A DNA stretch of 35,036 nt from a virus. Under the pieces are notes generated by a model. It was not told the origin of the DNA, did not search any database, and saw only the letters and a list, made by a program, of their open reading frames with translations. Location: positions 1-35,036 of the IMG/VR virus record IMGVR_UViG_3300023172_000097. One strand, given 5' to 3'. Both the position numbers and the translations under genes were made by a program. Position 1 is the stretch's first letter. Each line of letters opens with the position of its first letter. Positions 1,496-32,133 of this stretch are shown piece after piece.

Positions 1496-1513
1496 TTATT
1501 CTAATATACACCA
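1496..1513 (-). promoter_or_regulatory. Candidate late promoter, copy A
   Basis: On the minus strand the gap before the connector gene reads GGTGTATATTAGAATAAA. The core GTGTATAT (1511-1504) ends 39 bases before the start codon. It shares core and spacing with four other minus-strand gaps (near 6090, 17102, 22589 and 32124). There is no TTGACA-like box upstream. Recognition by the phage sigma factor is an inference. Confidence 0.45.
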
Positions 1514-1524
1514 TGGTTTAATGC

Positions 1525-2232
1525 TTATATGATAGGCTGGCATTTTGACCCACCATTTTTATCATATCCTGGCCCGCAATCATCTTGTGGATCTGATAGA
1601 CTTATTTGAAGAGTATTAATATCTACACTGTTGTTTGCTTCTGTTCTAGCTAATGCCTCGTTCTTGGCAGATTCCAGCTTTCTATTTGATTCTACATAAT
1701 TTTCTATATTTGACTGCAAAATTTGTTTGGATAAAGTTATTTCGTTTCCTTCTATGTCTTGTATTACAGGGTCGGTATCTGATACAATCGAATTTACTAG
1801 TGTCGAAAGGATTTTAAGCTGGCTATCTTTATCTCTTGGTAAAAAGACGTCGTTATTATTAACTGTGATTTTATAACCATTAGCTATTTCTCTGTCATAT
1901 TGTTTTTTTACAATATTAGCCTTTGCTTCTGCCCAAACTTCTGGACTTGGTTCAAGTGTTGTATGGGTATTTTTCCACACAAGATAGCATTCCCAATCTG
2001 ACAATAAATCTCCTCCATCAAACTGATCGCAAGGCAATAATGCTGACTCAATGCCATCAAAAGTAATAATCGACTCTTCTTGTGTTTCGGTATTCACCCT
2101 AAGGATAGGACTACTGTAGCTTTTATCTACCACTAATTTACCATTAGACTCTATGATGCGAGTATAATAATAGTTATAATTTTGAGTATATTCGCAATAA
2201 TCGTATACGTTATCAAAACCACAAAATGTCAT
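1525..2232 (-). CDS. Tail-fibre-associated protein, DUF4376-like, possible fibre chaperone
   Basis: This encodes 235 residues and lies 1 base downstream of the large fibre gene, so it is certainly co-transcribed with it. The N-terminus is tyrosine-rich (residues 10-25). Residues about 105-190 resemble the DUF4376 type found in fibre-assembly proteins: IANGYKITVNNNDVFLPRDK, followed by two helices ending in KLESAKNEAL. The C-terminus carries two cysteines in a short Gly/Asp tail (CGPGYDKNGGSKC). Small genes directly behind a fibre gene are usually fibre chaperones or attachment factors. That role is inferred from position and weak resemblance. Confidence 0.55.
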   Translation of the reverse strand: MTFCGFDNVYDYCEYTQNYNYYYTRIIESNGKLVVDKSYSSPILRVNTETQEESIITFDGIESALLPCDQFDGGDLLSDWECYLVWKNTHTTLEPSPEVWAEAKANIVKKQYDREIANGYKITVNNNDVFLPRDKDSQLKILSTLVNSIVSDTDPVIQDIEGNEITLSKQILQSNIENYVESNRKLESAKNEALARTEANNSVDINTLQISLSDPQDDCGPGYDKNGGSKCQPII

Positions 2233-2233
2233 T

Positions 2234-5200
2234 TTACACCTGTTCTATCCAGAGTCCGTAAATATCGTTACCTTTTTGAATAAATGAAACATTACATACT
2301 AAGCCATTAGTAAATGTATATTGGGTATAATTATTGAAATTATGAGAACCTAATTCTAATGCAATATTATATGATTTTAAATAATATTCAAAATCTGTAT
2401 CTATTTCTTTTGCTAATCTATAGTAATAAGAAGAAGTAAAAGCACTATAATTACCATAGTATATAGGAGTAGTAAGTAATGCTGCTCTAACAGACGCAAT
2501 AGACCTACCCTGTGGCCATCTAGAATCATTGTTTGACATAGTCAAGCGACCAGTAGATCTCAATCTTATATTGTAAATAGGTCTGTTTTCTATTAAAGAC
2601 ATTAAAGATGATGGGGCCCATGTCATTAAGCTATCACCTTTAATTGGGGGTTTCGTATACGTTTCAGCGGTATTATATATACCATAATTGGCGTAAGATC
2701 TGACAACACGGAAAAATGGAATAAATTCAAATCTTTTGCTTCTATTAGAAAGACTAGTTGATGCAAAAGCGGTGCTTTCTGAGCTTTCTGTGGTGTTGCT
2801 TGTTCTGAAAACAAATTTATGTTTAATTTCAGGCGATATAGAGTAATTAACGCCAAACACCCGATCTATATCAACAGTAAAAACATATGGAGAACCAGGC
2901 CCAACAAGATTTTGGTAAGAAATTGTTTTAACCAGAGAATAATTATTTTCACTATCGACATAGTAGGTCTGTAGGACCATATTGTTTACAGAATCTTCGC
3001 CCCTTCCTTCTTCGGTATGTAATAGTTTTTCAACTTCAAAATAAATATAGTCATTTCTAACTCTTTGAACAGAAAAATTTGGAGCTTGTGGTTTTTTAAG
3101 AGGGTCCCATAATTTATGAACAACTGGAGTAGATGTGTATTGAGTGCCAGAAACATTAACAATAGCAGTAGTACTTTGCCATAATTCGGAAGACACATCA
3201 GACAAGGCCCACCTAGTTCGGTATGGTATATAGATATTATCTCCGATTCTGGTGCGCCTATATCGATCCATGTATAAGATTGTAGATTTTATATTAGAAT
3301 TTGGATATACACTTGGATCTCCACTATATATAACACCAGATAATGTGGGGTATCCTATAGCAGAAGAATCTGGACTTTTTACCAATAAATTGACCAACGG
3401 CGCAGTGGTTCTTTTGTATGAAACACCATTAAGCAATATTGTGTCAGAATTAAAGGAAGAGCCGATAGCATTTGGTGTTGATATTGTTGCACAGCCCGTA
3501 TTGGAAAGGCCGTGATAGTTATAATACGTTGCCCCCACACCATAATTTACGCCTGCGTCAAGGTTGTTGATTTTAAGTTTATTGCTGGTACTAGATGCGA
3601 TATTTTCTGATGAGTATTGAGATAAGGACGAGCAATCAATACCGGTATATGAAATGCCGCTAACAATAGTAGAACCTCTGTCGTTTATAGTGTAGTAGTG
3701 GTTTAGAGAGCAACCAGATATGCTTGCGTTATAGAAATTATAGTTAAATTCCTGACCATTCAATGGAATAATATCAGGTGTAGTACTAGTTAGTGAAACA
3801 GCACCGGAGTATAAGCCGGTACCACTAGCATTAACAGCCGCACATTTAGCGTACCACGTTGTAGAATTATTTCCGGTTAATTTATTGATAAGCTTTAATC
3901 TATTGATTCTAAAAGTATTAGTGTTGAACGATTGTAAATTAGTAGAATCAAAAGTATTTACGGTATCTACTAAAATATTGTAATATGCAATAGACTGTCC
4001 GCCATTATCTGTAGGAGCAGACCACGCTAAAGTAGCCAAAGAATAAGCGCTACTACTATAGTCGCCACTATAACCAGGATGAACAGAATAAATCCTTTGC
4101 TCTGATAGATTTCTAGATTGTGTGACGCTAGATCCAACAAAAGATAGTTCGTCGTCCCAACCAAATGAGAGACTATTGGGTTCTGAGCAGGTTGCAACAG
4201 ACCTACCTGGTGTTTCATAAGAAGTAAAGGACCAGGTGCCAGTACCAGCATAATTAAGCGGGGCTAGCCTGAAATAATATGTCGTATTAGTAGTTAAAGA
4301 ACTTATGTTTGTTGAGTTGCTGGTTCCTTGTGCTGCGATAGTCACAGTGGAACCATTTTGTATATTGCCACTATCGGCAGAATATTGCAAGAGATATCCT
4401 GTGACAGAATAACCGCCATCAGAATATGGGGCAGTCCAGAAAACAGAAACGCTGTCTGATCTAGGATATGTAATAATATTATTTATAGCAGTAGCTGTCG
4501 ATCTGCTTTGCGTTATAGTGTTACTATAAACTCCAGTAAGATTGCTTATAACAGGAGCTATTCTATGATAAAAATTAGAATCATTAGTATTTAGGTAAGC
4601 AATGTCTGTATTAAGGCTGTCTCCAAGTTTATATTCTTTAATATGTCTTGAGAATATACTACTATCAAAAGTAGATACAGTATCTGTTTCTATAATAAAT
4701 TTGTCTGGAATACTGTTTGTAGAAAAAATATAATTCCAAGAAATATTAGATACGCCATTTTCAAAAATCGCACTAGCGCCAAATGTTTGAAGTCCAGAAG
4801 ATACTGGAGAACCTTCGAAAGTATGAGCCATAGTATTTGACGGATCAGATTCACCTATGGCGTTAGTTGCTGTTATGTTAAAATAATAATTTTCTGATAA
4901 GTCTATATTAGTAATAGATCCGGATGTGACAATACCCCCATAGTGATTACCAGAAACAGGAATATCAATACTATTATTAAGAGAATTTATTTCTGTACCA
5001 TAATTAATGGTATATTGACTAATCTTTGAATTATTGTCGGTAGAGCCTGACCAGTATATTACTAATCCAGAAGTAATTAAATTAGTGTTAGAGGTAATAC
5101 CAGTAGGGGGCAGAGGTCTATTTTCTGGATATATTTCATTATCTATAATAATGTTATCTAGAATAATATTATTGTCTTGAGCATTAGCGGCGTCTCCATC

Positions 5201-6052
5201 AAGAAACACGGAATTTTCTCTAATATAGGGAGCTAGATTGTTAACTCCACGAGATTTATTTTTTGCATTAGGGATTAAAACTCTCGCCTTGGACATTTTT
5301 CTAGGTTTAGAATTAAGTTTTACAGAGCTGGTGAATTTCTTAGCATTCTGCGGTATAGCTTCAGCATAAGAAACCTTTTGATAAAATGCTTCGCAAGATA
5401 ATAGTTGCGAGGCATAAGATTTATGTGTTAGTTGTGTTGGTATAAATCCAAGTTCTAATTTGGCTTGACTAAAGTTTATTTTAGAATTACCAGCAAGACC
5501 TGTGGTGGTTTCTGGCCTAATCTCAAAAATCAATGTTCTAGCATTAGAAGGAACGGTAAAGCTAGAATAATATTGTGTCCACCCAGAAGATATGGCGGTA
5601 TTCACAATAGAGCCTGAGATAATAGTTTTATCTTGCAGAGCATCATCTTCATGCGGAGTGTAGTACATGGCAGAATAAATATTGCCACTTAAAGACAGGT
5701 TAGGACTCATGGCATAGTAGCTCATACTCATATCTTCACCCTGGTGAGGTAAAACATCCTCTGTTGGCACAACATACAATAAGCTGTAGTAGCATCCAGA
5801 CACCGTGTTTGTGAGACTGATGCCATAGCTATTATTGTCTAAAACTCCGTTAGTCATGCATTTGGTGGCGGTAGCTCCTTGGCTATCATATTCGTTCTCA
5901 AAAATAGAGAAGAACCATCTATCAGCAGTATATCCCTGCTTATTGAAAGAAATACCCCTTTGCCATACATCAAAATTACCATTAATAATGATATTCTCGC
6001 TATCGACTTTGCGATTTAGTAAAGATTTGGCGTAATTAATGATTCTTGACAT
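2234..6052 (-). CDS. Large tail fibre with N-terminal jelly-roll-like domain and fibronectin type III repeats
   Basis: This encodes 1272 residues, starting at ATG 6052 with AAAGGA upstream. Residues about 19-50 (IIINGNFDVWQRG, then GYTADRWF) begin a carbohydrate-binding-like beta-sandwich typical of phage fibres; it closes near SYASQLLSCEAFYQKV around 213-230. At least three fibronectin-III-like units follow, recognisable by PPTGITSNTN, WTAPYSDGGYSVTGYLLQYS and WSAPTDNGGQSIAYYNI, each ending in a TYYFRLAPLN-like strand. The last ~350 residues are beta-rich and unrecognised, and could be the receptor-binding tip. The protein is likely a trimeric virion appendage. Its operon partner directly downstream is the DUF4376-like gene. 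Confidence 0.85.
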   Translation of the reverse strand: MSRIINYAKSLLNRKVDSENIIINGNFDVWQRGISFNKQGYTADRWFFSIFENEYDSQGATATKCMTNGVLDNNSYGISLTNTVSGCYYSLLYVVPTEDVLPHQGEDMSMSYYAMSPNLSLSGNIYSAMYYTPHEDDALQDKTIISGSIVNTAISSGWTQYYSSFTVPSNARTLIFEIRPETTTGLAGNSKINFSQAKLELGFIPTQLTHKSYASQLLSCEAFYQKVSYAEAIPQNAKKFTSSVKLNSKPRKMSKARVLIPNAKNKSRGVNNLAPYIRENSVFLDGDAANAQDNNIILDNIIIDNEIYPENRPLPPTGITSNTNLITSGLVIYWSGSTDNNSKISQYTINYGTEINSLNNSIDIPVSGNHYGGIVTSGSITNIDLSENYYFNITATNAIGESDPSNTMAHTFEGSPVSSGLQTFGASAIFENGVSNISWNYIFSTNSIPDKFIIETDTVSTFDSSIFSRHIKEYKLGDSLNTDIAYLNTNDSNFYHRIAPVISNLTGVYSNTITQSRSTATAINNIITYPRSDSVSVFWTAPYSDGGYSVTGYLLQYSADSGNIQNGSTVTIAAQGTSNSTNISSLTTNTTYYFRLAPLNYAGTGTWSFTSYETPGRSVATCSEPNSLSFGWDDELSFVGSSVTQSRNLSEQRIYSVHPGYSGDYSSSAYSLATLAWSAPTDNGGQSIAYYNILVDTVNTFDSTNLQSFNTNTFRINRLKLINKLTGNNSTTWYAKCAAVNASGTGLYSGAVSLTSTTPDIIPLNGQEFNYNFYNASISGCSLNHYYTINDRGSTIVSGISYTGIDCSSLSQYSSENIASSTSNKLKINNLDAGVNYGVGATYYNYHGLSNTGCATISTPNAIGSSFNSDTILLNGVSYKRTTAPLVNLLVKSPDSSAIGYPTLSGVIYSGDPSVYPNSNIKSTILYMDRYRRTRIGDNIYIPYRTRWALSDVSSELWQSTTAIVNVSGTQYTSTPVVHKLWDPLKKPQAPNFSVQRVRNDYIYFEVEKLLHTEEGRGEDSVNNMVLQTYYVDSENNYSLVKTISYQNLVGPGSPYVFTVDIDRVFGVNYSISPEIKHKFVFRTSNTTESSESTAFASTSLSNRSKRFEFIPFFRVVRSYANYGIYNTAETYTKPPIKGDSLMTWAPSSLMSLIENRPIYNIRLRSTGRLTMSNNDSRWPQGRSIASVRAALLTTPIYYGNYSAFTSSYYYRLAKEIDTDFEYYLKSYNIALELGSHNFNNYTQYTFTNGLVCNVSFIQKGNDIYGLWIEQV

Positions 6053-6081
6053 ATGCTATCCTTTAAAGAAAATTTGCGCCT

Positions 6082-6099
6082 ATAAAGATAAATACACTA
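6082..6099 (-). promoter_or_regulatory. Candidate late promoter, copy B
   Basis: The minus strand reads AGTGTATTTATCTTTATA, with the core at 6097-6090, ending 37 bases before the large fibre start. It matches the core and spacing of the other four proposed late promoters. It overlaps the stop codon of a 12-codon reading frame. Confidence 0.45.
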
Positions 6100-6135: not shown

Positions 6136-6148
6136 ATTATTCTCCTTA

Positions 6149-7422: not shown

Positions 7423-7423
7423 A

Positions 7424-7672: not shown

Positions 7673-7675
7673 TTT

Positions 7676-8053: not shown

Positions 8054-8066
8054 GTTAAATACCTTT

Positions 8067-16405: not shown

Positions 16406-16657
16406 TTATGGTGTTCCGCAATCTATCTCAAAAGTATCCATGAAATTAGTTAAAAATTCTGTTAATCCAATTACATCGCTTGCGTATACTAGAGATGTTG
16501 TTATAGCAGCACTAAATCCTGTGCTAATCTCAATAGAAGATGCTGTGCTTGTTTCTATATCCACAACTCCAATACCCTCTCCATGAGTTACCGCAGTGCT
16601 AGTCTCGATTTCAATAATATGATTAGTGTCAAAAACTTCTACAGTAAAATCGCTCAT
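16406..16657 (-). CDS. Small beta-repeat virion protein
   Basis: The chosen start is ATG at 16657, which overlaps the upstream stop as ATGA with GGAG nine bases before; a GTG at 16666 is the alternative. It gives 83 residues. The sequence contains three short tandem units, IEIETSTAV, VDIETSTAS and IEISTGFS, a pattern expected for a small beta-solenoid or strand stack. The function is unknown. It is translationally coupled to the IEQG-domain gene and probably accompanies it in the virion. Confidence 0.6.
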   Translation of the reverse strand: MSDFTVEVFDTNHIIEIETSTAVTHGEGIGVVDIETSTASSIEISTGFSAAITTSLVYASDVIGLTEFLTNFMDTFEIDCGTP

Positions 16658-17093: not shown

Positions 17094-17111
17094 ATAAAAT
17101 AGTATACACCT
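17094..17111 (-). promoter_or_regulatory. Candidate late promoter, copy C
   Basis: The minus strand reads GGTGTATACTATTTTATC, with the core at 17109-17102, 43 bases before the next start codon. It lies just downstream of the capsid-gene terminator, so transcription of the appendage block must start here or read through. It shares its core with four other sites. Confidence 0.5.
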
Positions 17112-17136: not shown

Positions 17137-17168
17137 AGAAAAAAGCCGCCCTGGGAAGAGCGGCTTTC
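17137..17168 (-). terminator. Intrinsic terminator after the major capsid gene
   Basis: On the minus strand an 8-base GC-rich stem, AAAGCCGC pairing with GCGGCTTT (17160-17167 with 17142-17149), has a 10-base loop and runs into a T tract. It lies 28 bases past the capsid stop. This is a textbook Rho-independent terminator and the clearest one in the window. Confidence 0.92.
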
Positions 17169-18714: not shown

Positions 18715-20355
18715 TTATTTTTTGGTATTGAGTCTGGAACTAACAAAATCAACAAGAGCAGCGCGAGTGCTTTCTGCTGAATCTTCAGCTTCTTCACCAA
18801 CACTAAGATTTACTTCGTCTTCTACTTCGACACTATCAAGAATTTCAGCAGATGTGTCTTCCGACTCGTCTGACTCTTCTGATACTTCTTCTGAAGCTTC
18901 TTCTGATTCTTCAGCCATAGACATCTTTGGTTTCTTAGCCTCTGATTCGTCTTCTTTCTCTTTCTTGGCCATTTCTTCCTTTTTAGGTTTCATGGCTGCT
19001 AAAACATCAGTCATAGCATCAAAAGTTTCGTCGTCTAAGGATTCGAATTTTTCAATAGTAGCATCGGCTGAATCATTGTCTACTCCAGATTCGATAAGCT
19101 TGGCTTTTCTTTGCATCATCTTTTCTTTTTTCTTCATCTCTTCCTCTTTCATCTTGTATTCAGCAACAAGAGTTTCTGCATTAGAAAGAGATTCTGTTAA
19201 GGATGCAATCTTTTCTTCTTGTGCCTTGATGGTTTCTTCGTGCGAAGCAACTGTTTCAAGAATAGAAGTAAGTTCTGAGCCTTTGTTTTCAATTTCTTCT
19301 GATTTAACTTTTAGCTCTTCGTCAAGCTTAGAGATCTGATCAGCCTTGGCATCAGAATCGGCTTTGCTTGCGGTAAGAGCTTCGGATAATTCAGAATACT
19401 GTTTTTCTAGATCTGAAGCTGTCTTCACAAAGCTATCTTTAATAGCTTCAGAAGATTTAGCAATGCTTTCAATCTGATCTTTAATTTCTGATACGTCTTT
19501 ATCTAAGTTCATTGGTTCAACCTCCGAGTTAAAGCTTGACTTAAGTGTTGATACACCTAATTCTGTAAAATTATTAATATTTTGATCATCTTTTTTTTCT
19601 GGCGTCTGATTTATTTTCAAAATGATACTTTCAGGGTTAGCTGGCTTAGCAACAAAACCCTTTCCGCTGAATACAATATTTCTTAAAACTCTGCCAATTT
19701 TGTAATTTTCATGCTCTCCAGTACCGCCGTATGCTCTTAAGTGTTTAGTAAGGTGTGCTGTGGATTCACTCCTGGGAAGCACCTCGTATTTATTGGTATT
19801 CTTTTCTATAAGACCATAATCAAAGCCACTAAACATACATTCCATACTGACATATTTTTGGCCGTTTTCTATTTCCTGTATAAGATTTTCTGCTCTCGAC
19901 CTTAGTTCTGGATCAGAAAACGCTCGGTATATTACGGATCCTGTTAATATGTGGTATTTATTTGGAAGATTATCTTCTGGAGTATCTTTATCTATAAGTA
20001 ATCCGTCTTCAGTAATTGGCCAATTAGAAATAATATGACCTATAATTGTTTTTTCATCATGCTCTAAATTTGTTGGCTTATCTTCTGGGGTGCTTTTAGC
20101 TCTCCAAACTTCTAAGCTATCGAAAATATCATCATTTCTATTCCAGTTAGATGTTACTAAGATAGACTGAACATAATATAAGTCTTCGTCGCTATATGAA
20201 GCTAGACTTTTATATTCATTTTTATTTTTGTTATGCAGTATATTGTCTTTTGAAGATGGTACGGCTTGACTAGCATAACTAATAGAAGCAGTAGACTTAA
20301 TCATTTCAGACAAGCCATCCGCTACTTCTACATCATAAACTTTGATATTATTCAT
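18715..20355 (-). CDS. Prohead protease fused to scaffolding protein
   Basis: This encodes 546 residues. The start ATG overlaps the portal stop (ATGA). Residues 50-250 have a herpes-assemblin-like protease layout: the strand WNRNDDIFDSLEVWRA, a likely catalytic His at 99 (NLEHDEKTIIGHI), and a likely catalytic Ser at 170 (KYVSMECMF). FSGKGFVAKPANPES closes the domain. Residues about 280-430 are strongly coiled-coil (repeated Lys/Glu heptads), as in scaffolds. The C-terminus is very acidic (Glu/Ser/Asp-rich, 440-520) and ends VDFVSSRLNTKK. It acts inside the prohead, shaping the shell and then digesting the core. Catalytic residues are assigned by pattern. Confidence 0.82.
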   Translation of the reverse strand: MNNIKVYDVEVADGLSEMIKSTASISYASQAVPSSKDNILHNKNKNEYKSLASYSDEDLYYVQSILVTSNWNRNDDIFDSLEVWRAKSTPEDKPTNLEHDEKTIIGHIISNWPITEDGLLIDKDTPEDNLPNKYHILTGSVIYRAFSDPELRSRAENLIQEIENGQKYVSMECMFSGFDYGLIEKNTNKYEVLPRSESTAHLTKHLRAYGGTGEHENYKIGRVLRNIVFSGKGFVAKPANPESIILKINQTPEKKDDQNINNFTELGVSTLKSSFNSEVEPMNLDKDVSEIKDQIESIAKSSEAIKDSFVKTASDLEKQYSELSEALTASKADSDAKADQISKLDEELKVKSEEIENKGSELTSILETVASHEETIKAQEEKIASLTESLSNAETLVAEYKMKEEEMKKKEKMMQRKAKLIESGVDNDSADATIEKFESLDDETFDAMTDVLAAMKPKKEEMAKKEKEDESEAKKPKMSMAEESEEASEEVSEESDESEDTSAEILDSVEVEDEVNLSVGEEAEDSAESTRAALVDFVSSRLNTKK

Positions 20356-22547
20356 ATTTTAGGCCTTTTTGAGTACAAGTGTTCATACACCAAAGAATAA
20401 AAAGAAGACTTTATATGTTTGTTTGACTCTGAGTTTAATTCATAATTGGTCTGATGTTTAATGTCTTTGACCCAATCATTGAATTTATTATATATGGAAA
20501 TGTTTTGTGGGGAATTTATTTTTGCAAGAGTATTTTGAATAGAATCCTCTGCTATTACTATATCGGGATGGCTAGCAAATAAGACTTGTGTTTTTAGTCT
20601 ATCTAACTCCTGGTGTTCGGCTTTTGATAAACTCCTTAAATTTTTCTTGTTGTAAAAGGTCAACATGATGGGGTTTATTATGTCTGATATTTTATCTTGA
20701 GCTTGCGCTGCCCAAAGTGCTATTTTTGCCCCGGTTTGTGGTTTGAAGGTTTTTTCTTTTCGCTGCTCTTTGTCTTTTGATAATCTGGGTCTTCCTTCTC
20801 CAGGTACTCCACGCAACGATTCCGGGGAATCGTTAGCCAACTTCGTTGATGACATTTCCTGTTTAAGTTGTATTGCTGTTTTTTCTGATGGTTTTTTCTT
20901 TGGTAAGCTGAGACCAACTTGGGAAGGCGTTACTATGCCTAATTGTAAGGATAGTTTCTTTAATGCATTATCGAATTGTGGATCATGCCAAGGCCCAGCC
21001 TTTTTAATCATTCTGTCTGACTTCCTATCTCTGTTTTCTCTATTTAGTCTTGTTTTTTCCATATCAGGATCAAAACCAAACTTGGTTTGTAGTAGCTCGT
21101 CACTAATTAGATTTCTATCAGCTAATTGTATAAGTAGTGCTTTTTCAGCATCCTCATTACTTAGATCCATTCTGTCAAATTCTATACTAGCCGGAAATCT
21201 AAAACCCATTGCTTTTTGTACCAATACAATTTCTTTTTCCCAAAAATCCATCAATAAATCTCTACCGTACTGTAGTCTTTGGGTTAGTGTTTTTAGTGAT
21301 ATGAAATTATTTGTAGTGCCAGCAGCACCGTATGTTCCAGTAAGAGTTGGAGGGATTCCAAGTCCAGCATATATACTATTTAAGTGAGGTGTATATTTAC
21401 CTTCTCCTAGAAATTGATGTACGTTTGTTTTGCTTTCTAGTAATTCTATATCTGGCCCCCACACCAAATCCATTGTTCCTCCGCCAACATTATTTCCTAA
21501 AATCTGAGCGAGTTTAGCTGTAGCCGCTTTTGTCGGAGCTATCTTGTGTTCAAGACTACCTAGCTTAAAAATCCTAATATTGGAAATGGCCCCATCTAAT
21601 GCTGCGATATCTGCGAGTTTTAATTTTTCGATGACTGTAATATCATCCATGATTGCATAAATCATAGGATAAGCCCATGTTTGCCAATCATCTTTCTTAT
21701 AATGATATACTACGACTTTGTTGGGGTCTAGAGGATAGGGCTTTCTTGTCTTAGCGGCATCTACGATAGAAGGAGGAAGATTGTTAATAATATTTTTTTC
21801 ATTATCGTTTCTTGGAGAATTTACAATTTTTCTTATTCTGGCTGGTAAAACCAACTCATAAAGTTTATCGTGTACAAATGAAGATAAAGCACCAGCAGAA
21901 ACTTCTACACATACAGGATCTATGAAAGTATATCTCCAAGGGATTTCTTTCTTTTCTATTTTGTATTCTGGTAAAGTATCTATCTTTAGGTCGGCAACAC
22001 CTATGGCTTTATAAAGATCTTTTGCTACTTTGGTTCCAATTTTACCAGTTTGTTTATTTATAACAACATTGCCCGTCTTGTATAGGTTATTTAAAAATCT
22101 TTCGCTTCTATCTTTGCCGTTGATTTTCTTAAACCACTGCCTATAAAATCTCTCAATCCTTTTATTCTTATGAACAATTTTTATTCCTTGTACGGCAAAA
22201 TCGCCCATAAGATCAATCACATTTTTGACTAAACCAACTCTTTGATATATGTCTTCCGCTTTTTTAATTACCGCCTTAACATGTTTTGGTACGGCTTCAT
22301 CTGGACGAAAATAGTCATAATCTTGTCTTGTTAATCCTGGTCGGCCTCCAGTATTACCATCCAAATTAGAGAAATCGTTGTAATATCTACGACCGGCTAC
22401 GGCTTTGTTTATTCCAGTATATTCTTCTAGGGCTCCAGCAGAAGCTTTGAGCGCCTCCCCTTGAGTATTAGGGTCATTAGTCCAAAAAACATATGCTTCA
22501 TTAGGGGAAATAGAGGCATTTTTAATAGGCGATTGTTTATCTGACAT
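20352..22547 (-). CDS. Portal protein
   Basis: This encodes 731 residues and is the first gene after TerL. The N-terminal half shows portal features: a helical stem-and-wing region (VKNVIDLMGDFAVQGIKIVH), RYTFIDPVCVEV, and PNKVVVYHYKKDDWQTWAYP. The clip/stem region is AYPMIYAIMDDITVIEKLKLADIAALDG. FISLKTLTQRLQYGRDLLMDFWEKEI is the long helix near the crown. The C-terminal ~200 residues are lysine-rich and longer than in minimal portals. It forms the dodecameric ring at one vertex through which DNA enters. It is preceded by a proposed late promoter and translationally coupled to the protease-scaffold gene. Confidence 0.88.
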   Translation of the reverse strand: MSDKQSPIKNASISPNEAYVFWTNDPNTQGEALKASAGALEEYTGINKAVAGRRYYNDFSNLDGNTGGRPGLTRQDYDYFRPDEAVPKHVKAVIKKAEDIYQRVGLVKNVIDLMGDFAVQGIKIVHKNKRIERFYRQWFKKINGKDRSERFLNNLYKTGNVVINKQTGKIGTKVAKDLYKAIGVADLKIDTLPEYKIEKKEIPWRYTFIDPVCVEVSAGALSSFVHDKLYELVLPARIRKIVNSPRNDNEKNIINNLPPSIVDAAKTRKPYPLDPNKVVVYHYKKDDWQTWAYPMIYAIMDDITVIEKLKLADIAALDGAISNIRIFKLGSLEHKIAPTKAATAKLAQILGNNVGGGTMDLVWGPDIELLESKTNVHQFLGEGKYTPHLNSIYAGLGIPPTLTGTYGAAGTTNNFISLKTLTQRLQYGRDLLMDFWEKEIVLVQKAMGFRFPASIEFDRMDLSNEDAEKALLIQLADRNLISDELLQTKFGFDPDMEKTRLNRENRDRKSDRMIKKAGPWHDPQFDNALKKLSLQLGIVTPSQVGLSLPKKKPSEKTAIQLKQEMSSTKLANDSPESLRGVPGEGRPRLSKDKEQRKEKTFKPQTGAKIALWAAQAQDKISDIINPIMLTFYNKKNLRSLSKAEHQELDRLKTQVLFASHPDIVIAEDSIQNTLAKINSPQNISIYNKFNDWVKDIKHQTNYELNSESNKHIKSSFYSLVYEHLYSKRPKI

Positions 22548-22580
22548 ATCATTCGTTTTGTAATGGTATTGTAATTGTAT

Positions 22581-22598
22581 TGATAATTATATACACTA
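22581..22598 (-). promoter_or_regulatory. Candidate late promoter, copy D
   Basis: In the 52-base gap between TerL and portal the minus strand reads TTAGTGTATATAATTATC, with the core at 22596-22589, 41 bases before the portal start. It is the member closest to an extended TATAAT-like -10 element. It would give the head genes their own late transcript. Confidence 0.5.
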
Positions 22599-22599
22599 A

Positions 22600-24612
22600 T
22601 TATCTGTAAATTCCAGTATAAATATCTGCATTAGCTCCTTGGGTGAACCAATCTGGACCTTTATACATCTCTCCGTCCTGTTTTGCGCTGCTGCTACGCA
22701 GGTTGTCTCCAATAATATCATAAGATATTGGAGCTGATTGTCTATGCATTTGTCTAGCTAACATATTAGCTATTACTAATGAGCTATATCTATCTTTGCG
22801 TAATCGACCCTTTTTTCCTCCGTGCATTTTAACTTCTGGAGTATCCCATCTATCTCTAGCGTTGGGACCATTGCTGGTTTGAGTCATAACAATAGTAGTT
22901 AATTCGTTTTTAAGCTCTTCTATTTCCATAATACAATCTTGTGCGCTGTCATATAGATTTGTGCTATCTGTATCTATGATGTCCTTGCCTTCTTGCAACA
23001 TAGATAGTCCTAAACTTAGATTATCAAATCTTGGAAATAACAAAAGTTTGTCTTCTAGGTCTTTTCGTAAACCATGGTTAGCCTGTGAGGTCCATTCTGA
23101 TTTAGCGAATTGTATTAGCTCTAATATGTGTAATCCAGATTTATCGTCAGTTTCTTTCGCTTTGTTTGGATCAATAGCTGGCCATATAGGCACTTCTCCC
23201 TCTTGGAGTTTAGAAGGATCATGAAGAGCTTCTTCGATAGCAACGCCACCGCCTTGAGCATCTAGTCCAATTCGTGCGCAAGGAAATATTTTCATAAGAT
23301 CTCTTATTTTTCTAGCACAAAAACCATAAAAATCGTGTTCATTGACTAGTCCTGTTTTTTGTCTGTCCTGAAAATTTGATCGATTAGTAGTCCATACATG
23401 AACAACCCTAGAATGATCAGGATGTAATTCTATAATTACAATGCAAAAATTGTCTTTTTCGCTAGCGGGATCAATACCATATATGTATTCTAAATTAGGA
23501 TCACCCTTGGTCTTTGCTTCAAAAATAATTTCTTTTTCGCCTATCTTGATAGGATTGGGATTTCCGGTAACACAACTTTCTATCAAACTTCTTCTAAAAA
23601 ATCCTTCACTATCATTGACAAAACAGGCAGCATATTCCATGTTATATATACCAGTATGAATAGTAGCTTTGGCTCTTGATACTTGCTTATCATCCATGAA
23701 GCCCTTAGGTATTAATTCATAAGGTATTCTAATTACGCTATAATCTTTCCAATTAAAATTTTCTGGAACTTCCCCAGTAAATATTTCTTGTAATTTATTA
23801 ATATCTCCTTTGCTTTCTACAATAGCCTTATATCTTTTCCAGTACTGGGCAAAGTGTTTAAAGCCGTAGTCTGCTGTTCCCGATATGATAGCTTGATTAC
23901 TCTTTCTGACTATTAAGCTTTCTAATTCTGGTGTCCATAAACCAGCATCTTGCATAGCCTTTTTTCTTGCTTCCTCTTTTACATTTTCAATAGGGCTGGC
24001 ACTAACAGCAGCGAAACCAGCAACGACTGTTTCGTAAATATCGGGAGATATAGATGCGAATTCATCAGCAACAATAATATGCGCTCTTAAACCTCTGATT
24101 TTGCTACCGTCGCCCATAGGAATAGCAATAGTCCAACTATCTCCTAGTCTTAATGTGCATCTATCTACATCTCTTCTAGGCCCGTCATCGTTGCCGCTAA
24201 AAATACTTCTCAGTACAGGGCTATTCTTCCAGATATTTTCCATATACTCAAATAAAATCTTACTCTGTCTAAATGCGGCCCCAACAACAACTATTTTGGT
24301 TCCTGGAACAAACGTGCATTTTAATATACAGTATAGACTCATCAAAAAAGATTTACCAAATCCACGGCTAGCAATAAACATGGGAAATGGTCTATGCCAA
24401 AATTCTTGTAGAATAACCATTTGAATAGGGTGTAGCTCTATATCAAACAGCATTTTAACTGTAGACCCAATATAGCTTGTGTCTCTCATTAGTTTCATTA
24501 AATGAGTGTCTGGATGCTCAATGTCGTATTTCGATCTGTGTATCATTGGATTTTTAATATCCAACGAACTTAAATCACCAAGACCTAACCACGCATTGTC
24601 ATAATTAGCCAT
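22600..24612 (-). CDS. terL: Terminase large subunit (packaging ATPase and nuclease)
   Basis: This encodes 670 residues. The ATPase domain has Walker A ASRGFGKSF at 81-89 (Lys87), an adenine-binding-type HPIQMVILQEFW at 61-72, and Walker B IIVADEF at 179-185 (Asp183, Glu184). The C-terminal RNase-H-like nuclease has Asp381 (YIYGIDPAS), Asp451 (IGLDAQGGG) and a probable third acid Asp607 (RKDRYSSL). All key acidic residues are present, so it looks active. It drives DNA into the prohead through the portal and cuts concatemers. The start overlaps the end of the ERCC4-type nuclease gene by 8 bases. Confidence 0.95.
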   Translation of the reverse strand: MANYDNAWLGLGDLSSLDIKNPMIHRSKYDIEHPDTHLMKLMRDTSYIGSTVKMLFDIELHPIQMVILQEFWHRPFPMFIASRGFGKSFLMSLYCILKCTFVPGTKIVVVGAAFRQSKILFEYMENIWKNSPVLRSIFSGNDDGPRRDVDRCTLRLGDSWTIAIPMGDGSKIRGLRAHIIVADEFASISPDIYETVVAGFAAVSASPIENVKEEARKKAMQDAGLWTPELESLIVRKSNQAIISGTADYGFKHFAQYWKRYKAIVESKGDINKLQEIFTGEVPENFNWKDYSVIRIPYELIPKGFMDDKQVSRAKATIHTGIYNMEYAACFVNDSEGFFRRSLIESCVTGNPNPIKIGEKEIIFEAKTKGDPNLEYIYGIDPASEKDNFCIVIIELHPDHSRVVHVWTTNRSNFQDRQKTGLVNEHDFYGFCARKIRDLMKIFPCARIGLDAQGGGVAIEEALHDPSKLQEGEVPIWPAIDPNKAKETDDKSGLHILELIQFAKSEWTSQANHGLRKDLEDKLLLFPRFDNLSLGLSMLQEGKDIIDTDSTNLYDSAQDCIMEIEELKNELTTIVMTQTSNGPNARDRWDTPEVKMHGGKKGRLRKDRYSSLVIANMLARQMHRQSAPISYDIIGDNLRSSSAKQDGEMYKGPDWFTQGANADIYTGIYR

Positions 24613-25081: not shown

Positions 25082-25091
25082 GTTGAGATTG

Positions 25092-25697
25092 CTAGCCAGA
25101 AACAGATTCTGCTTCTTTAGAATCTTCTTGATTCTTTGCTATAAGCTTTCTTGATTTGTATATGGCCCTCTGAACCATAGACTTTGCAACAAATTCTACG
25201 TAAGGCAATTTTCTTTTCTGGCTTTCTTCTTTTAGCCAAGAAAGAATAGTGTCAATATTCTGCTCACACCAATCTGGGCCTTTTTCGTTCATTTCTAAGG
25301 CGTGACGGCGACAACTACAATTAGATGAAGACTTAATACCAATAGTCTTTATCATGCTCGTTAGAATGCTTCCTGGTCCATCTGGGTCTTGTTCTAAGGT
25401 TTTTGGAAATTGATTATTAATGGTTGTTTCAATATCGTCGCCCAATACCATCAAGAGCTTGTATGTTAAAGATGTAATATTGATATCGTCTTGATTATTT
25501 TCATAGTCTTCACCCTGATATAACATGAATCTACCAGGAACATTGCTAAACGTAGCAAATGCCATTTTTTGCTCTGGGTGAATATGATATAAAACATCAA
25601 GCTTGTCTACAACTTGAGGTTCTGGGGTAATAACTTTATCATTCTGGTCCGTATATGGAGGAGCTTGAATAGTTATAGTTTTTTCTAATTCAATCAT
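25092..25697 (-). CDS. Conserved hypothetical protein with Cys-x-Cys motif
   Basis: This encodes 201 residues; I know of no function. Residues 1-100 are beta/mixed. From about 105 there is a distinct block: DGPGSILTSMIKTIGIK, then NCSCRRHALEMNEKGPDWC (Cys127, Cys129, Cys144). An amphipathic helical region, ILSWLKEESQKRKLPYV, and SMVQRAIYKSRKL follow. The Cys-x-Cys...Cys pattern suggests a small metal site. I have an impression of similar blocks in uncultured phage and bacterial hypothetical proteins. Location between HNH and ERCC4 nucleases hints at a role in DNA processing for packaging. Confidence 0.65.
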   Translation of the reverse strand: MIELEKTITIQAPPYTDQNDKVITPEPQVVDKLDVLYHIHPEQKMAFATFSNVPGRFMLYQGEDYENNQDDINITSLTYKLLMVLGDDIETTINNQFPKTLEQDPDGPGSILTSMIKTIGIKSSSNCSCRRHALEMNEKGPDWCEQNIDTILSWLKEESQKRKLPYVEFVAKSMVQRAIYKSRKLIAKNQEDSKEAESVSG

Positions 25698-25983
25698 TGC
25701 TGTTCCTTTTCTTGTTTTTGTTAAAGTCTGATAGTAAAATTTTTAAAAAAGCTGTACTATATTGATCTTCCATTCCTCTTATCATGTCGTGGTGTTGTTT
25801 GCAAAGAGTGATACCATTATTAATCTCGTATCTCAAATGCGGAAAATCCGACCAAGTTTTAATATGGTGAGCGTTTATCTTGTGACGAGAACCACAATTA
25901 GGCCACCTACAACGAAACTTATCTCTTGAATAAACTTCTTTTCTCCATTTTTTATAAACTGGATCATTAAAGTTTCTTCTCAT
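25690..25983 (-). CDS. HNH endonuclease
   Basis: This encodes 97 residues. The zinc-binding HNH fold is complete: Cys25 and Cys30, the AHHIKTWSDFP strand with catalytic His40, Asn55/56 in EINNGITLC, and Cys61 with His64/His65. The start overlaps the preceding stop (ATGA) and the end overlaps the next start by 8 bases, so it is an integrated operon member rather than an inserted homing gene. HNH proteins next to terminase genes assist TerL in specific cutting in HK97-like phages, and that role is plausible here. Confidence 0.9.
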   Translation of the reverse strand: MRRNFNDPVYKKWRKEVYSRDKFRCRWPNCGSRHKINAHHIKTWSDFPHLRYEINNGITLCKQHHDMIRGMEDQYSTAFLKILLSDFNKNKKRNSND

Positions 25984-26969
25984 CTAAATAGTTCCAAATC
26001 ACTATACACCATATTGGCCACTAACTGCTGAAAGTTGTATTCTGGCTTCCAATCAAGAGTTTGTCTAGCTTTAGTAGCATCACCCTTAAGAAATTCTACT
26101 TCGCAAGGTCTATAAAATTCAGGATCAATTTGTATATAATTATTATAATCTAAATCCCAAAGCTGGAAAGCTTCTTGTAGGAAATCTTTTACACTATGGG
26201 TTTTCCCTGTTGCTATTACATAATCGTCTGGAATATCGTGGTTTAGCATCATGTGCATAGATTTTACATAGTCCTGAGCATGGCCCCAGTCTCTATATGC
26301 TTCGATATTGCCTAGTCTTAATTTTTCATCATCTTTAATCAGACCATTAATCAATTTGGCTAAATATATAGTAATTTTTCTGGTGACAAAATTAGCTCCT
26401 CTGCGAGGGCTTTCATGATTAAATAATATACCGCTACAACCAAACAAGTTATAAGAGTGTCTATAAATATGCACCATATGATGAGAACATAGTTTAGAAC
26501 ATGCATACGGACTCTGGGGAAGCATTGGTGTTTGCTCGTTTTGATATTTTTCGCCTTGTGAATCAACCAAATAATTTCGCCCAAACATTTCGCTTGTGCT
26601 AGCTTGGTAGAATTTAGTGTCTGGAGAGTGTAATCTAATTGATTCTAAGAGATTGGTGACACCAACGGTATTTATTTCAAATGTAGTAGTAGGCTGCTTG
26701 AAGCTAGTAGCAACATGGCTCTGAGCAGCTAAATTATAAAATTCGTCTGGAGCATACTCTTTTATAGTAGAGCTACAATCTGAAGGATCTGTAAGATCAA
26801 ATTCCTGTAGTATAAAATTTTTATGCTTGATCAAGGATTCTATTCTGGATATATTATGATTACTAGATCTTCTATGTAGACCTACTACTTTATATCCTAG
26901 ATCTAACAGATACTCGCCCAGATAAGATCCGTCTTGTCCTGTAATTCCACTAATTAAAGCTGTTTTCAT
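25980..26969 (-). CDS. gmd: GDP-mannose 4,6-dehydratase
   Basis: This encodes 329 residues, a little shorter than many bacterial forms. It is an extended short-chain dehydrogenase: NADP-binding GITGQDGSYLGEYLL at 8-22, LHRRSSNHN, the AAQSHV loop, catalytic STSEMFG and SPYACSKL (Tyr-x-x-x-Lys). Substrate-site segments are NHESPRRGANFVTRKI and RDWGHAQDYVKSM. The motifs appear intact, so an active enzyme is expected. It converts GDP-mannose to GDP-4-keto-6-deoxymannose, the precursor of GDP-fucose and related sugars, in the host cytosol. No partner synthase or glycosyltransferase is seen in the window. It may alter host surface sugars or supply sugar for virion or DNA decoration. Confidence 0.95.
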   Translation of the reverse strand: MKTALISGITGQDGSYLGEYLLDLGYKVVGLHRRSSNHNISRIESLIKHKNFILQEFDLTDPSDCSSTIKEYAPDEFYNLAAQSHVATSFKQPTTTFEINTVGVTNLLESIRLHSPDTKFYQASTSEMFGRNYLVDSQGEKYQNEQTPMLPQSPYACSKLCSHHMVHIYRHSYNLFGCSGILFNHESPRRGANFVTRKITIYLAKLINGLIKDDEKLRLGNIEAYRDWGHAQDYVKSMHMMLNHDIPDDYVIATGKTHSVKDFLQEAFQLWDLDYNNYIQIDPEFYRPCEVEFLKGDATKARQTLDWKPEYNFQQLVANMVYSDLELFR

Positions 26970-26970
26970 T

Positions 26971-27789
26971 TTAGTCCTGATTTTCTGGTAATAGTAAAGG
27001 TTGATCTATTCCATTGTCCTCGTATGTATGTAACTCTGACAGGTTCTCCCTGAACTTTTTAGAGGCCATATTTAAAATTTCCATCTCTCTGCCCTGCTTT
27101 TCTCTAAGCTCCTCGTCTTCTAGCATTCTTATAAGTCCTACCCAGCTACTTTTTCCATCCTCGATCCTTTTGATTCTTTGCTCTCTAGTAGCCTTTAGGT
27201 CTTTGCTAATTTTTTGTTGTTCGCTTAATAATTTAGTATATTCATTAGTATAGTTGGCAATGCTATTTCTTGCAAAACTTAACTGGGTTTCTAAATTGGC
27301 CAACCTGTTTAGATCTCGCTCACTCTCTTTCTTTTCGTATTCAGCATCTACTTGCTTTTGTAGTTTTTCAGTTTCGCTAATATGGCGTTTGCGTTCTTTC
27401 ATACTCCTATTAATAAGGATGTCTATGGTGATAAATTGTTTTATTTGTAATTCTTCTGCAGGTAGTACGTCCTCCCTGAACTGTTTGATTAACCCAATCC
27501 AGGTATTCTCAAAATATTCAAGCTCTCCTGTTGTTTGGTCAAATTGTCTTTCTATTTCTTGCCAAAAGGTTTTACTATGTAGTTTTGCTCTTAGGAATTC
27601 TATTTGTTGGTCATCTTCTCCTGAAAGTAGGCGATTTTGTTCAATAAATTTTTTAACGGGGTTTACTGTGCGATTAAGGTGATCTGCTATATCTTCTATA
27701 GATAATTTATTAACATTATCTTTTATGTATTGTTCTTCGTCAAGGCCTAATTGACCTCTTTTTTTCCTGATCACAGCTTTTTTTGGCAT
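26971..27789 (-). CDS. HTH plus coiled-coil protein, possible small terminase
   Basis: This encodes 272 residues. Residues 17-53 look like a helix-turn-helix (DEEQYIKDNVNKLSIEDIADHLNRTVNPVKK, split over two helices and a recognition helix). From about 110 to 235 it is highly charged and helical with heptad character, probably a coiled coil. Small terminase subunits combine an N-terminal HTH with an oligomerising helical region. No other small terminase candidate is seen upstream of TerL, though three genes and gmd lie in between. Alternatively it is a transcription factor partner of the adjacent sigma factor, whose end it overlaps by 19 bases. Confidence 0.5.
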   Translation of the reverse strand: MPKKAVIRKKRGQLGLDEEQYIKDNVNKLSIEDIADHLNRTVNPVKKFIEQNRLLSGEDDQQIEFLRAKLHSKTFWQEIERQFDQTTGELEYFENTWIGLIKQFREDVLPAEELQIKQFITIDILINRSMKERKRHISETEKLQKQVDAEYEKKESERDLNRLANLETQLSFARNSIANYTNEYTKLLSEQQKISKDLKATREQRIKRIEDGKSSWVGLIRMLEDEELREKQGREMEILNMASKKFRENLSELHTYEDNGIDQPLLLPENQD

Positions 27790-28517
27790 TGGAATCGCTC
27801 TATAAGTTCTTGTATATATTTTTGTAATTTGACTACTTCTGCCTTGGGTACTTTAGATCCATGTTTCAATTTGAGATAAGGTTCTCTATATTGGGCTTCT
27901 ATGTTGTCGTCTAGAAAAGTGATAATTTCTTGGTTTTCTATGTTTTGCAGAAAAGAGTCTTTGCTAAGGCTGGACGAAATATTTTGGTTTTCAGATATAT
28001 ATTGGGGCTGCATTATGTTTTTCTTGGCGTCATTACGATTAAACCAGGCAGCATACATTTCACAATTGAGTTTGTCTTTGTGTTCCTCGCATTGATTGTC
28101 TGATTTTTTATAGTCCTTGTCGAAAAAAGGGCAACCTTGACAGGGTTTATCTGGTCGCTGATAATTATTCCTTTTGTAGTTAAATAGGCGATTTCTTACA
28201 TGGGTCCAAAGAAAGTTTTCTAGTGGTCTGCTTTTGTCATAATTTTGCAGACCTTCTATGGCGAATATGGCTGCCTGCTGTTTCATGTCATCAACTTCAT
28301 GATAGCCAAATTTAAATTTAGTGGCTAATCTTCTAGTTATGTTTTCGAGGGCTTCCAGAAACTCTTTCTCGCAGACACCATTTAAGTAAGAATCTTTATT
28401 GGTTGTTTCACCCTTAGTTTGTTGGGTGCGATTCTTGTTCGGATTCTTCTGTGTCTTCTTGGGAGTTTTCTGTAATTTCCTCGTTGTGTTTTTCGTCTTG
28501 GTTGTCTTTTTCGCCAT
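27771..28517 (-). CDS. Phage RNA polymerase sigma factor (sigma-70 region 2 type, late-sigma-like)
   Basis: This encodes 248 residues. Residues 55-116 match sigma region 2: a core-binding helix with FGYHEVDDMKQQAAIFAIEG, then YDKSRPLENFLWTHVRNRLF and NYKR. A cysteine cluster follows (Cys126, 129, 143, 152; C-x2-C-x13-C-x8-C). The C-terminal ~45 residues (YREPYLKLKHGSKVPKAEVV) may be a reduced region 4. The lysine-rich first 34 residues are read from DNA shared with the upstream gene. ATG 28517 is the only canonical start, though its ribosome site is poor. T4-type phages use such a sigma for late promoters; the recurring GTGTAWW motif on this strand is its candidate target. Confidence 0.78.
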   Translation of the reverse strand: MAKKTTKTKNTTRKLQKTPKKTQKNPNKNRTQQTKGETTNKDSYLNGVCEKEFLEALENITRRLATKFKFGYHEVDDMKQQAAIFAIEGLQNYDKSRPLENFLWTHVRNRLFNYKRNNYQRPDKPCQGCPFFDKDYKKSDNQCEEHKDKLNCEMYAAWFNRNDAKKNIMQPQYISENQNISSSLSKDSFLQNIENQEIITFLDDNIEAQYREPYLKLKHGSKVPKAEVVKLQKYIQELIERFQCQKKL

Positions 28518-28635
28518 TTAATAAATCGTTGATGGATGCGGTTGATTTTGAAGCAAGATCTTTGCTTACATCTAGGTCTGATTTGGCTCTAGTTTCTAGT
28601 ATGCTGTCTACTGGATGGCCTTCAAAAGGTTGCAT
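28414..28635 (-). CDS. Small acidic protein overlapping the sigma gene
   Basis: This encodes 73 residues with a strong AAGGAG ribosome site and its own promoter. It is the first gene of the sigma-capsid operon. Residues 1-38 are ordinary; 40-73 are extremely acidic (Glu/Asp/Asn/Gln-rich, ending ESHPTN). The last 104 bases are also the first codons of the sigma gene in another frame, where they encode a lysine-rich tail. The function is unknown. Candidates are a sigma partner or antagonist that could bind the basic tail, but this is speculation. Confidence 0.6.
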   Translation of the reverse strand: MQPFEGHPVDSILETRAKSDLDVSKDLASKSTASINDLLNGEKDNQDEKHNEEITENSQEDTEESEQESHPTN

Positions 28636-28670
28636 TTTTTCTCCTTGCTCAAAGTGATCAATTATTTATT

Positions 28671-28698
28671 ATAGTAACATAGAACTTAAAGTCGTCAA
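28671..28698 (-). promoter_or_regulatory. Sigma-70-like promoter for the sigma operon
   Basis: The minus strand has -35 TTGACG (28698-28693), a 16-base spacer and -10 TACTAT (28676-28671), about 36 bases before the acidic-protein start. It fits host polymerase use, so the sigma gene could be expressed before late promoters fire. Confidence 0.6.
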
Positions 28699-28704
28699 TA
28701 TACT
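28699..28704 (+). promoter_or_regulatory. Possible -10 element of the divergent HTH gene
   Basis: TATACT lies 21 bases before the HTH gene start, with no good -35 box at 17 bases upstream. It directly abuts the -35 element of the opposite-strand promoter, so the two promoters would compete for the same DNA. Confidence 0.35.
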
Positions 28705-28725
28705 TTACACGAAAAAGGAAAAATT

Positions 28726-28938
28726 ATGGCCAGTTATAAAAGATGGCAGGACTCTGAGTTAGAATTTATTAAGCAGAATAAAGACGTAATGAGCGATTTA
28801 GAGCTGGCTGCTAAGCTTAGTCAGATGTCCAGCACTAATGTAACTACTAGTATGATTAGGCGACAAAGACGTAAATTAGGCATAGTAAAGCCTAAAGGAA
28901 GAAGAAAAAAGATTTACCAGAGTGCTGATCAGGGATAA
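28726..28938 (+). CDS. Small HTH DNA-binding protein
   Basis: This encodes 70 residues with an AAAGGAAAAATTATG start. The layout is SANT/Myb-like or homeodomain-like: WQDSELEFIKQNKDVMSDLE, then LAAKLSQM, then a basic recognition helix, TSMIRRQRRKLGI, with a basic tail (KPKGRRKK). It is the only plus-strand gene among the late genes. It is divergent from the sigma operon and its end overlaps the next minus-strand gene by 10 bases. It is well placed to regulate the sigma/late operon or its own promoter. That is inferred from position. Confidence 0.75.
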   Translation: MASYKRWQDSELEFIKQNKDVMSDLELAAKLSQMSSTNVTTSMIRRQRRKLGIVKPKGRRKKIYQSADQG

Positions 28939-30475: not shown

Positions 30476-30490
30476 TTTATACCTTCCAAA

Positions 30491-31357
30491 TTAAGGAGTA
30501 TACGTTAAGGACAAGGCCGAGGAGGCAGAAGTAGTGTCAGAATCCGGAGAACCTAAAGAGAAACTAGTTATTACAGTATAATTAACATCTGGATCTCTGG
30601 ATGGATTGCTGTTCTTGATATGAGAATCCCTTATTGTTTCTTTGCGAGGCGTGTAGACTATATAAGGGTCTTTACTAGATCTAGCCACTAAACCAATTGG
30701 AGGGTCTGAGGAATAATCAGAGGACAATGTCTGGTCGTCAAATTCTGTGGTAGCAAAAGGATAGGCTCTGGGGTCATGATTAATTTCTGTAAGGTTGGGC
30801 GCAAAGGTTTGGTATCCAATACCCTGGAAAGTTATGGTGATGCCAACAATAGCAAAATTATTATTAATAGAAAATTGAGCAGAAGCGTTGTCGGAGTTAC
30901 TGAAGTAGTATAGTCCTTCAAGATCTGATGCCCACTTTAAGCCTCCGAAAACATCAAAAGACCCGATACTGCCGTTAGAACCAGTTGTAATCACGCTTAT
31001 ACTGCCGACAGGATTATTACTACTGTTATAAATCTCAAAAGAATCATATATATCATATCCAGATCCGCTATTGGTCATTGTAACAGAATCTTCATAAAGC
31101 TGAAATATTGGTATGCCTGATGCTCTCAATCCTTCTGGATGTTCAGGTACAGGAAAAACTATAGAACTTTCTTTTGGATAGTTAAACCCTACGTGTTCTA
31201 CTGTTGCAGACAGTATGCTGACGTATTGGGGGTTTACGTAAATCTCATTATAATCATAGTATTTCCCTATATTTTCTGGTTGCCTAGCATGCAATCCAGA
31301 GAATTGTTTTTGTCTATTAAATCCCTCAAGAGAAAATCTATTGCTAGTATCACTCAT
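30491..31357 (-). CDS. Probable structural protein, beta-rich, unrecognised
   Basis: The start chosen is ATG 31357, overlapping the preceding stop by 8 bases; a TTG at 31372 is also in frame. It gives 288 residues. Much of it is beta-strand with Gly/Ser turns (VTMTNSGSGYDIYDSFEIYN, ITTGSNGSIGSFDVFGG). A second similar turn appears later (ITFQGIGYQTF). The N-terminus carries a helical/loop segment (FSLEGFNRQKQFSGLHARQP). Such proteins occur among neck and baseplate genes, but no family is assigned. Confidence 0.65.
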   Translation of the reverse strand: MSDTSNRFSLEGFNRQKQFSGLHARQPENIGKYYDYNEIYVNPQYVSILSATVEHVGFNYPKESSIVFPVPEHPEGLRASGIPIFQLYEDSVTMTNSGSGYDIYDSFEIYNSSNNPVGSISVITTGSNGSIGSFDVFGGLKWASDLEGLYYFSNSDNASAQFSINNNFAIVGITITFQGIGYQTFAPNLTEINHDPRAYPFATTEFDDQTLSSDYSSDPPIGLVARSSKDPYIVYTPRKETIRDSHIKNSNPSRDPDVNYTVITSFSLGSPDSDTTSASSALSLTYTP

Positions 31358-32087
31358 AATTAAACTCTTCAAAATGTAAAGTTCTGGTTTCTATTTTTTC
31401 TGCTTCGTCTTTTGAGGTATAAACCAACTGATCTTCTAATATGGAGCACTTATATACATCTTGATCTAAACTGTTTTTTATTGTTTTATGCAGGGAAAAG
31501 TCTTCGTTCAGTAGAACACTAAATGCATTCTTGTTTGAGTCTTCTCCTGTAAGAATATATTTATTTTGATTGTATAGTTTGTTGATTTTTAGTATGTGTT
31601 TAAAACCCAGGTCGGCAAAATCTATCAATGAATCATTAGATATTTGTAGTTTAGCGTTTTTGAAACCTGTTTGTCTTATCAGCAGCTGATTATTTATTAA
31701 TGTTCCGGTGAAACATTTTTGTATAACTTTAAATGTTTGTGGGTCAAACTCTGAAAAAGTAGGATCACTAGCTTCCATACTGACTAAATAATAAACTATT
31801 GGATGGTTTCCTCCCAAAGAAAATCCGGCATTCCAGTATAGCGTATTGGGATTTTCTGGGTATGTATGAGGATTACACTCTATCAATGAAGAACCATATT
31901 TTGGATGATATCTAAGAGTTTTGACGATTCTAGATTCTTCTGAATTTAAGTTTTTATAATGAATTTTCCAGGGTCTAGCGGCATAGTAACCATGATAATA
32001 AAAATTACTAACTTTGTCGCTATAGCAATATAGCATCAAAGTGTCATTTTGGTAACTATACAAAAATGGCTGGCTACTATTAATCAT
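31350..32087 (-). CDS. Hypothetical protein, first gene of the right-hand late operon
   Basis: This encodes 245 residues, aromatic-rich (many Tyr, Phe and Asn). Recognisable segments are YHPKYGSSLIECNPHTYPEN and YWNAGFSLGGNHPIVYYLVS. The C-terminal half alternates short strands (LLIRQTGFKNAKLQIS, DEAEKIETRTLHFEEF). I do not recognise the fold; it may be a beta-propeller-like or beta-sandwich virion protein. It is preceded by one of the proposed late promoters. Confidence 0.65.
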   Translation of the reverse strand: MINSSQPFLYSYQNDTLMLYCYSDKVSNFYYHGYYAARPWKIHYKNLNSEESRIVKTLRYHPKYGSSLIECNPHTYPENPNTLYWNAGFSLGGNHPIVYYLVSMEASDPTFSEFDPQTFKVIQKCFTGTLINNQLLIRQTGFKNAKLQISNDSLIDFADLGFKHILKINKLYNQNKYILTGEDSNKNAFSVLLNEDFSLHKTIKNSLDQDVYKCSILEDQLVYTSKDEAEKIETRTLHFEEFNYE

Positions 32088-32115
32088 AATATTTAGTTTT
32101 CATGTTACTATGGTT

Positions 32116-32133
32116 ACAAAGTTAATTACACCT
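32116..32133 (-). promoter_or_regulatory. Candidate late promoter, copy E
   Basis: The minus strand reads AGGTGTAATTAACTTTGT, with the core at 32131-32124, 36 bases before the start of the first right-hand late gene. It is slightly divergent (GTGTAATT), but its spacing falls in the same 36-43 base range as the other four. Confidence 0.4.

Follow-up and report, generated by a model that had tools for sequence, protein, structure and literature searches.

The window considered here is the entire 35 kb record of a virus (35,036 nucleotides; IMG/VR record IMGVR_UViG_3300023172_000097). Its minus strand carries terminase, portal and phage sigma factor genes and, ahead of several genes, a short recurring element built on the word GTGTAWW; a host-type promoter precedes the sigma operon, and others lie in a plus-strand cluster. 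The main features are given below, with promoters, start sites and expression classes as predicted:

1504..1511, minus strand: promoter element GTGTATAT, predicted start 1497, before gene 943-1464; GTGTAW kept in 15/15 orthologous leaders
6090..6097, minus strand: promoter element GTGTATTT, predicted start 6083, before gene 2234-6052; motif in 3/4 leaders
17102..17109, minus strand: promoter element GTGTATAC, predicted start 17095, before gene 16654-17058; terminator upstream; motif in 20/22 orthologous leaders
17139..17167, minus strand: intrinsic terminator (from sequence) that follows the major capsid gene and directly precedes the promoter at 17109
20352..22547, minus strand: portal gene (phrog_3753, weak match), motif-served, late
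20383..20390, minus strand: promoter element GTGTATGA in the portal 3′ end, predicted start 20376; PWM 12.0; motif in 21/28 and 18/23 orthologous leaders
22589..22596, minus strand: promoter element GTGTATAT, directly after the terminase stop codon, before portal gene 20352-22547; motif in 37/40 leaders and 35/36 new ones
22600..24612, minus strand: terminase large subunit (phrog_2, E 5e-23), query for relatives
26002..26009, minus strand: promoter element GTGTATAG, score 15.8, predicted start 25995, before HNH gene 25690-25983 and inside the end of gene 25980-26969
27771..28517, minus strand: phage sigma factor (Pfam Sigma70_r2), region 2 only, with a Cys4 insertion (C126, C129, C143, C152)
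28414..28635, minus strand: small acidic ORF that lies upstream of the sigma gene and overlaps it; relatives keep it (46-81 aa)
28668..28698, minus strand: host-type promoter of the sigma operon, TTGACG...TATAAT, with GTGTA at 28706-28710, 12 bases upstream of the -35
32124..32131, minus strand: weaker promoter element GTGTAATT, predicted start 32117, before gene 31350-32087; PWM 8.9
32449..34476, plus strand: early-type cluster with host-type TTGACA/TATAAT promoters at 32449, 32917, 33133, 34164 and 34447

The elements at 1511, 6097, 17109, 22596 and 32131 are those from which an initial annotation had proposed a late promoter family, and its description of them proved accurate: they lie where it placed them, the 8-mer is 36-43 bases from the start codon in all five, the base preceding GTGTA is G, A, G, A and G, an AT-rich run follows each site and a TTGACA box is absent. 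Its further statement, that the sites occur only in real gaps between genes, has to be given up. A weight-matrix scan of the window adds two sites that had been overlooked, at 26009 and 20390, and both sit inside upstream gene ends. GGTGTATAG at 26009, the best-scoring site of the window, precedes the HNH gene by 26 nt; GGTGTATG at 20390, inside the portal gene, precedes the presumed protease/scaffold gene 18715-20355 by 35 nt. The weakest site is GGTGTAATT, before 31350-32087, a gene with hardly any relatives for testing. The gene behind the element at 6097 (1272 aa) probably encodes a tail or fibre protein.

The word itself is not enriched: GTGTAWW occurs 22 times in the window against 22.6 expected. 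Its placement is unusual, with at least 5 copies in the minus-strand gaps (548 nt) against 0.28 expected (P ~1e-5, for gaps picked with the sites already known). In a de novo k-mer ranking of 460 leaders from 12 sequences, GGTGTAT was the top 7-mer (59 against 4.5 expected), followed by TTGACA-type words. Refinement by EM and alignment of 95 sites gave the motif WWT[G/A]GTGTAT[A/T]nW. These 95 sites hold no information at -35, and no TTGACA about 17 bp from TATAAT was found. What they do share is a downstream signal: T stands at +13 in 61 of the 95 (P 3e-11), and a pyrimidine-purine step at +13/+14 is present in 55, compared with 12-34 at nearby positions. At each of the seven sites in the window +13 is T, and at six of them +14 is a purine; the portal site has T,C instead of T,purine at the predicted start. 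The initial annotation had expected transcripts to begin 6-9 bases downstream of the motif; the in silico initiator, T at -1 and a purine at +1 with a constant offset of 13/14 bases, predicts starts within that range.

Terminase searches of viral contigs gave 234 confirmed relatives and sigma searches at least 389; 80 of each were kept (L001-L080 for terminase), and eleven relatives of 52-238 kb were fetched. INPHARED contained no close relative: the terminase reaches about 25% identity there, and the capsid protein about 23% to Bacillus phage G. The only two terminase matches in genome bins were MAG contigs labelled Alphaproteobacteria and Flavobacteriales. Across the 12 related sequences (>1 Mb), strong sites (PWM >=11) number 34.1 per 10 kb of leader, 0.66 in sense coding sequence, 0.54 in antisense coding sequence and 0.62 in a Markov background, a roughly 50-fold excess in leaders over gene interiors and the opposite strand, although the comparison is circular in that the weight matrix was trained on those same leaders. 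The equal frequency within genes or on the other strand that had been named as speaking against a promoter family was thus not what was found (34.1 versus 0.5-0.8 per 10 kb). The plain word of the initial annotation and the orthologue test at new loci are free of this circularity. In the first set of orthologous leaders the motif was found in 37/40 for portal, 15/15 for the 943-family, 20/22 for the 16654-family and 21/28 for the 18715-family, with control leaders at 0/32 (MCP), 0/24 (p27) and 2/43 (ERCC4). At independent loci that were not part of the matrix it was present in 35 of 36 distinct portal leaders and 18 of 23 leaders of the 18715-family (protease/scaffold), and in none of the control leaders of terL (0/43) or p27 (0/44); P for the independent loci is ~2e-33. 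Leaders of p943, p16654 and MCP are absent from the new loci, so that each of these was tested once only.

As to transcription units, 11/95 motif sites have an intrinsic terminator in the 60 nt upstream, compared with 5/395 other leaders (P 2e-5); the window's terminator at 17139-17167 is among the former. Leader enrichment by strand, conservation before orthologues, upstream terminators, the lack of a -35 and the fixed-distance initiator all support the promoter reading. The genes served are mainly structural (portal, tape measure, tail fibre, minor tail, virion protein) and otherwise encode Laminin-G, Volactin, PhoH, trypsin-like and DUF1501 proteins and HNH nucleases. TTGACA/TATAAT promoters precede DNA polymerase III alpha, SSB, ligase, IMPDH, dCMP deaminase, HU and a glycosylase. 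The label “late” is supported by this division between portal, tape measure and tail fibre genes and replication genes; HNH nucleases and proteins without an assigned function make up a considerable part of the motif-served set, so lateness is not proven gene by gene.

Several individual loci can be recorded here. The plus-strand early arm (32290-34221) contains repeated promoter cassettes: one repeat of 139 nt (76%) occurs at 32836 and at 34083, and there are families of shorter ones. One relative has a full-length DUF1501 gene behind a GTGTA promoter on a phage contig (L108:5514-6788, minus strand; Pfam E 8.5e-111), which is only a hint as a clue to the host, and another has a Volactin-like (viral actin) gene behind such a promoter (L113:16935-17939, plus strand). 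Between promoter and portal ATG, at 22548-22589 on the minus strand, lie ATTACAAT-like units with a modal spacing of 11 nt. All distinct portal leaders (77/77) have at least two such units, against a mean of 30 and a maximum of 38 in shuffles, and the units are rare in other leaders; an operator array and a 5′ UTR element are both candidates for what they are.

All 32 sigma relatives match Pfam Sigma70_r2, region 2 is nearly invariant in the aligned relatives and the four cysteines that follow it are invariant. No region 4 was matched by Pfam among the 32, and none is recognisable in the window protein. A structure model is of low confidence (mean pLDDT 70) and had no PDB match below E 1e-3, most matches listed being sigma factors. 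The gene is present in each of ten long relatives (159-244 kb), five of which pass the Pfam cut-off. One of the ten has a second, weak Sigma70_r2 match (E 0.013) that is below the cut-off; no other match exceeds it in the ten, which may be fragments, so that another sigma factor or an activator might have escaped detection. PF00940 (T7-type), PF00623 and PF00562 (RpoC/RpoB) are absent from the ten, with positive controls that included T7, and promoters for a phage RNA polymerase (T7-type or phiKZ/AR9-type) were rejected for want of any polymerase domain found in these relatives.

A TTGAC/TATAAT promoter precedes the sigma operon in nearly all relatives. GTGTA occurs at +9/+10 of its spacer in 18/31, and 12 bases upstream of the -35 in 5/5 members of the window's clade. 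Genome-wide, three of 55 TTGAC promoters have GTGTA in the spacer, two of them belonging to sigma operons. Many of the spacer copies are GTGTAC, a weaker match, so the idea of a hybrid promoter is treated as a lead only. The product of the small acidic ORF is possibly a sigma co-factor or anti-sigma. Divergent from the operon is a conserved small HTH-like protein (28726-28938, plus strand) found in all 12 long sequences, and adjoining sigma is a protein (26971-27789, minus strand) that is 73-86% identical in long relatives and has weak HTH-type matches; it could be a small terminase or a transcription partner.

The best inference from these sequences is that the phage sigma factor would read the motif, because it is found in every long relative examined with no rival sigma over the cut-off, no phage polymerase was found in them and its own operon has a host-type promoter. 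An unlikely alternative is that the motif is an operator through which a phage activator or repressor, such as the divergent small HTH protein, acts on host sigma-70 promoters. The gene for that protein is conserved and adjoins the sigma operon, and GTGTA recurs within the spacer of the operon's promoter at +9/+10, but the motif is strand-specific, carries TATAnT at the -10 place itself and is followed by the T/purine initiator at +13/+14 and not by a second -10 element at fixed spacing. It is more improbable still that a host alternative sigma factor is the reader. This would leave the phage sigma without a target class, and the motif has been retained by a diverse family of phages, every long member of which has this one sigma, with region 2 hardly varying.

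There is very little reason to regard the motif as an RNA element, a processing or translation signal in the 5′ leader of longer transcripts. Its position on the sense strand near start codons would suit such a role, and the conserved ATTACAAT array also lies in portal leaders; against it stand the intrinsic terminators directly upstream of several sites, the initiator signal downstream and the lack of an Rfam family match. Chance repetition of a word in an AT-rich genome, with which the overall count agrees, has a negligible probability and was ruled out by placement and by conservation at independent loci.

The reading that we consider highly probable is that these are single-element promoters of a large group of uncultured phages, read late by a phage sigma factor on host core polymerase, and two characterized systems offer comparisons. 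In phiEco32, gp36, a sigma without homology to region 4, reads tAATGTAtA middle/late promoters, from which transcription starts 6-8 bp downstream (PMC8948821). The present motif is likewise a single element with a TGTAtA core and no -35, its predicted initiator lies 7 bases after TGTATA, in silico, compared with the 6-8 bp of gp36, and both phages would combine a phage sigma on host core polymerase with host-type early promoters. Owing to this shared core and predicted spacing, phiEco32 provides the closest known promoter. Within the element only the core is common: T[G/A]G, not TAA, stands before TGTATA. The best PHROG of gp36, phrog_1740, is matched by 32/32 sigma relatives (best E 5e-6; window protein E 0.012) over region 2 only, and hhalign of sigma against gp36 gave a weak similarity that again did not extend beyond region 2 (E 1.2e-3, probability 19%). 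The Cys4 insertion of the window sigma was not seen in gp36.

Late promoters of T4, read by gp55, have the sequence TATAAATA (PMC2988020, PMC1524935), and T4 homing endonucleases also have late promoters (PMC2988022). Similarities with the present system are one -10-like box without a -35, a region-2 sigma, and virion genes and homing endonucleases among those served; the box differs, and the TATAAATA element was not found. No match to phrog_234 (the gp55 family) was listed for any member of the sigma alignment, while gp55 controls match, and hhalign of sigma against gp55 shows a weak positive signal, which covers region 2 (E 2e-4, probability 46%). No gp45-type or beta clamp (PF02916, PF02768) exceeded the cut-off in the ten long relatives, in which remote clamps could be missed. 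Direct T4-type assignment was dropped on account of the missing phrog_234 match and the different box. As judged from sequence, the system would be a new lineage of the mechanism known from phiEco32 and T4, as neither family's defining features are all present. A literature search for GTGTATA as a late promoter returned nothing relevant.

In the proposed mechanism, the phage would use the host core RNA polymerase, and ordinary TTGACA/TATAAT promoters would drive the early genes and the sigma operon. Sigma, having no -35-binding region 4, would then direct the polymerase to WWT[G/A]GTGTAT[A/T]nW. The motif would occupy the -10 region, with TATAnT at about -11 to -6 and GGTG at -15 to -12, and transcription would begin at the purine that stands 14 bases beyond the first G of GTGTA. 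This would switch on, late, the genes for virion assembly together with some accessory genes and genes for homing endonucleases; we infer both the recognition of the motif by sigma and the temporal lateness of the class. A more elaborate proposal, which we hold tentatively and think somewhat doubtful, is a distinct late system that comprises a new family of region-2-only sigma factors, whose Cys4 insertion would be zinc-binding-like, a small acidic co-factor encoded by the overlapping ORF, and a sigma operon under a hybrid promoter, where GTGTA inside the host-type spacer would act as a feed-forward switch from host to phage sigma.

That this group of water-dwelling phages would turn on its virus-building genes through a one-box promoter, GGTGTATA, is well supported by the patterns described above. 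It would supply a sequence rule by which late genes, transcription units and start sites could be located in the genomes of hundreds of uncultured phages from aquatic habitats. It would also place another single-element sigma/promoter pair beside phiEco32 gp36 and T4 gp55, from which it may be learned how a sigma factor with region 2 only picks its box.
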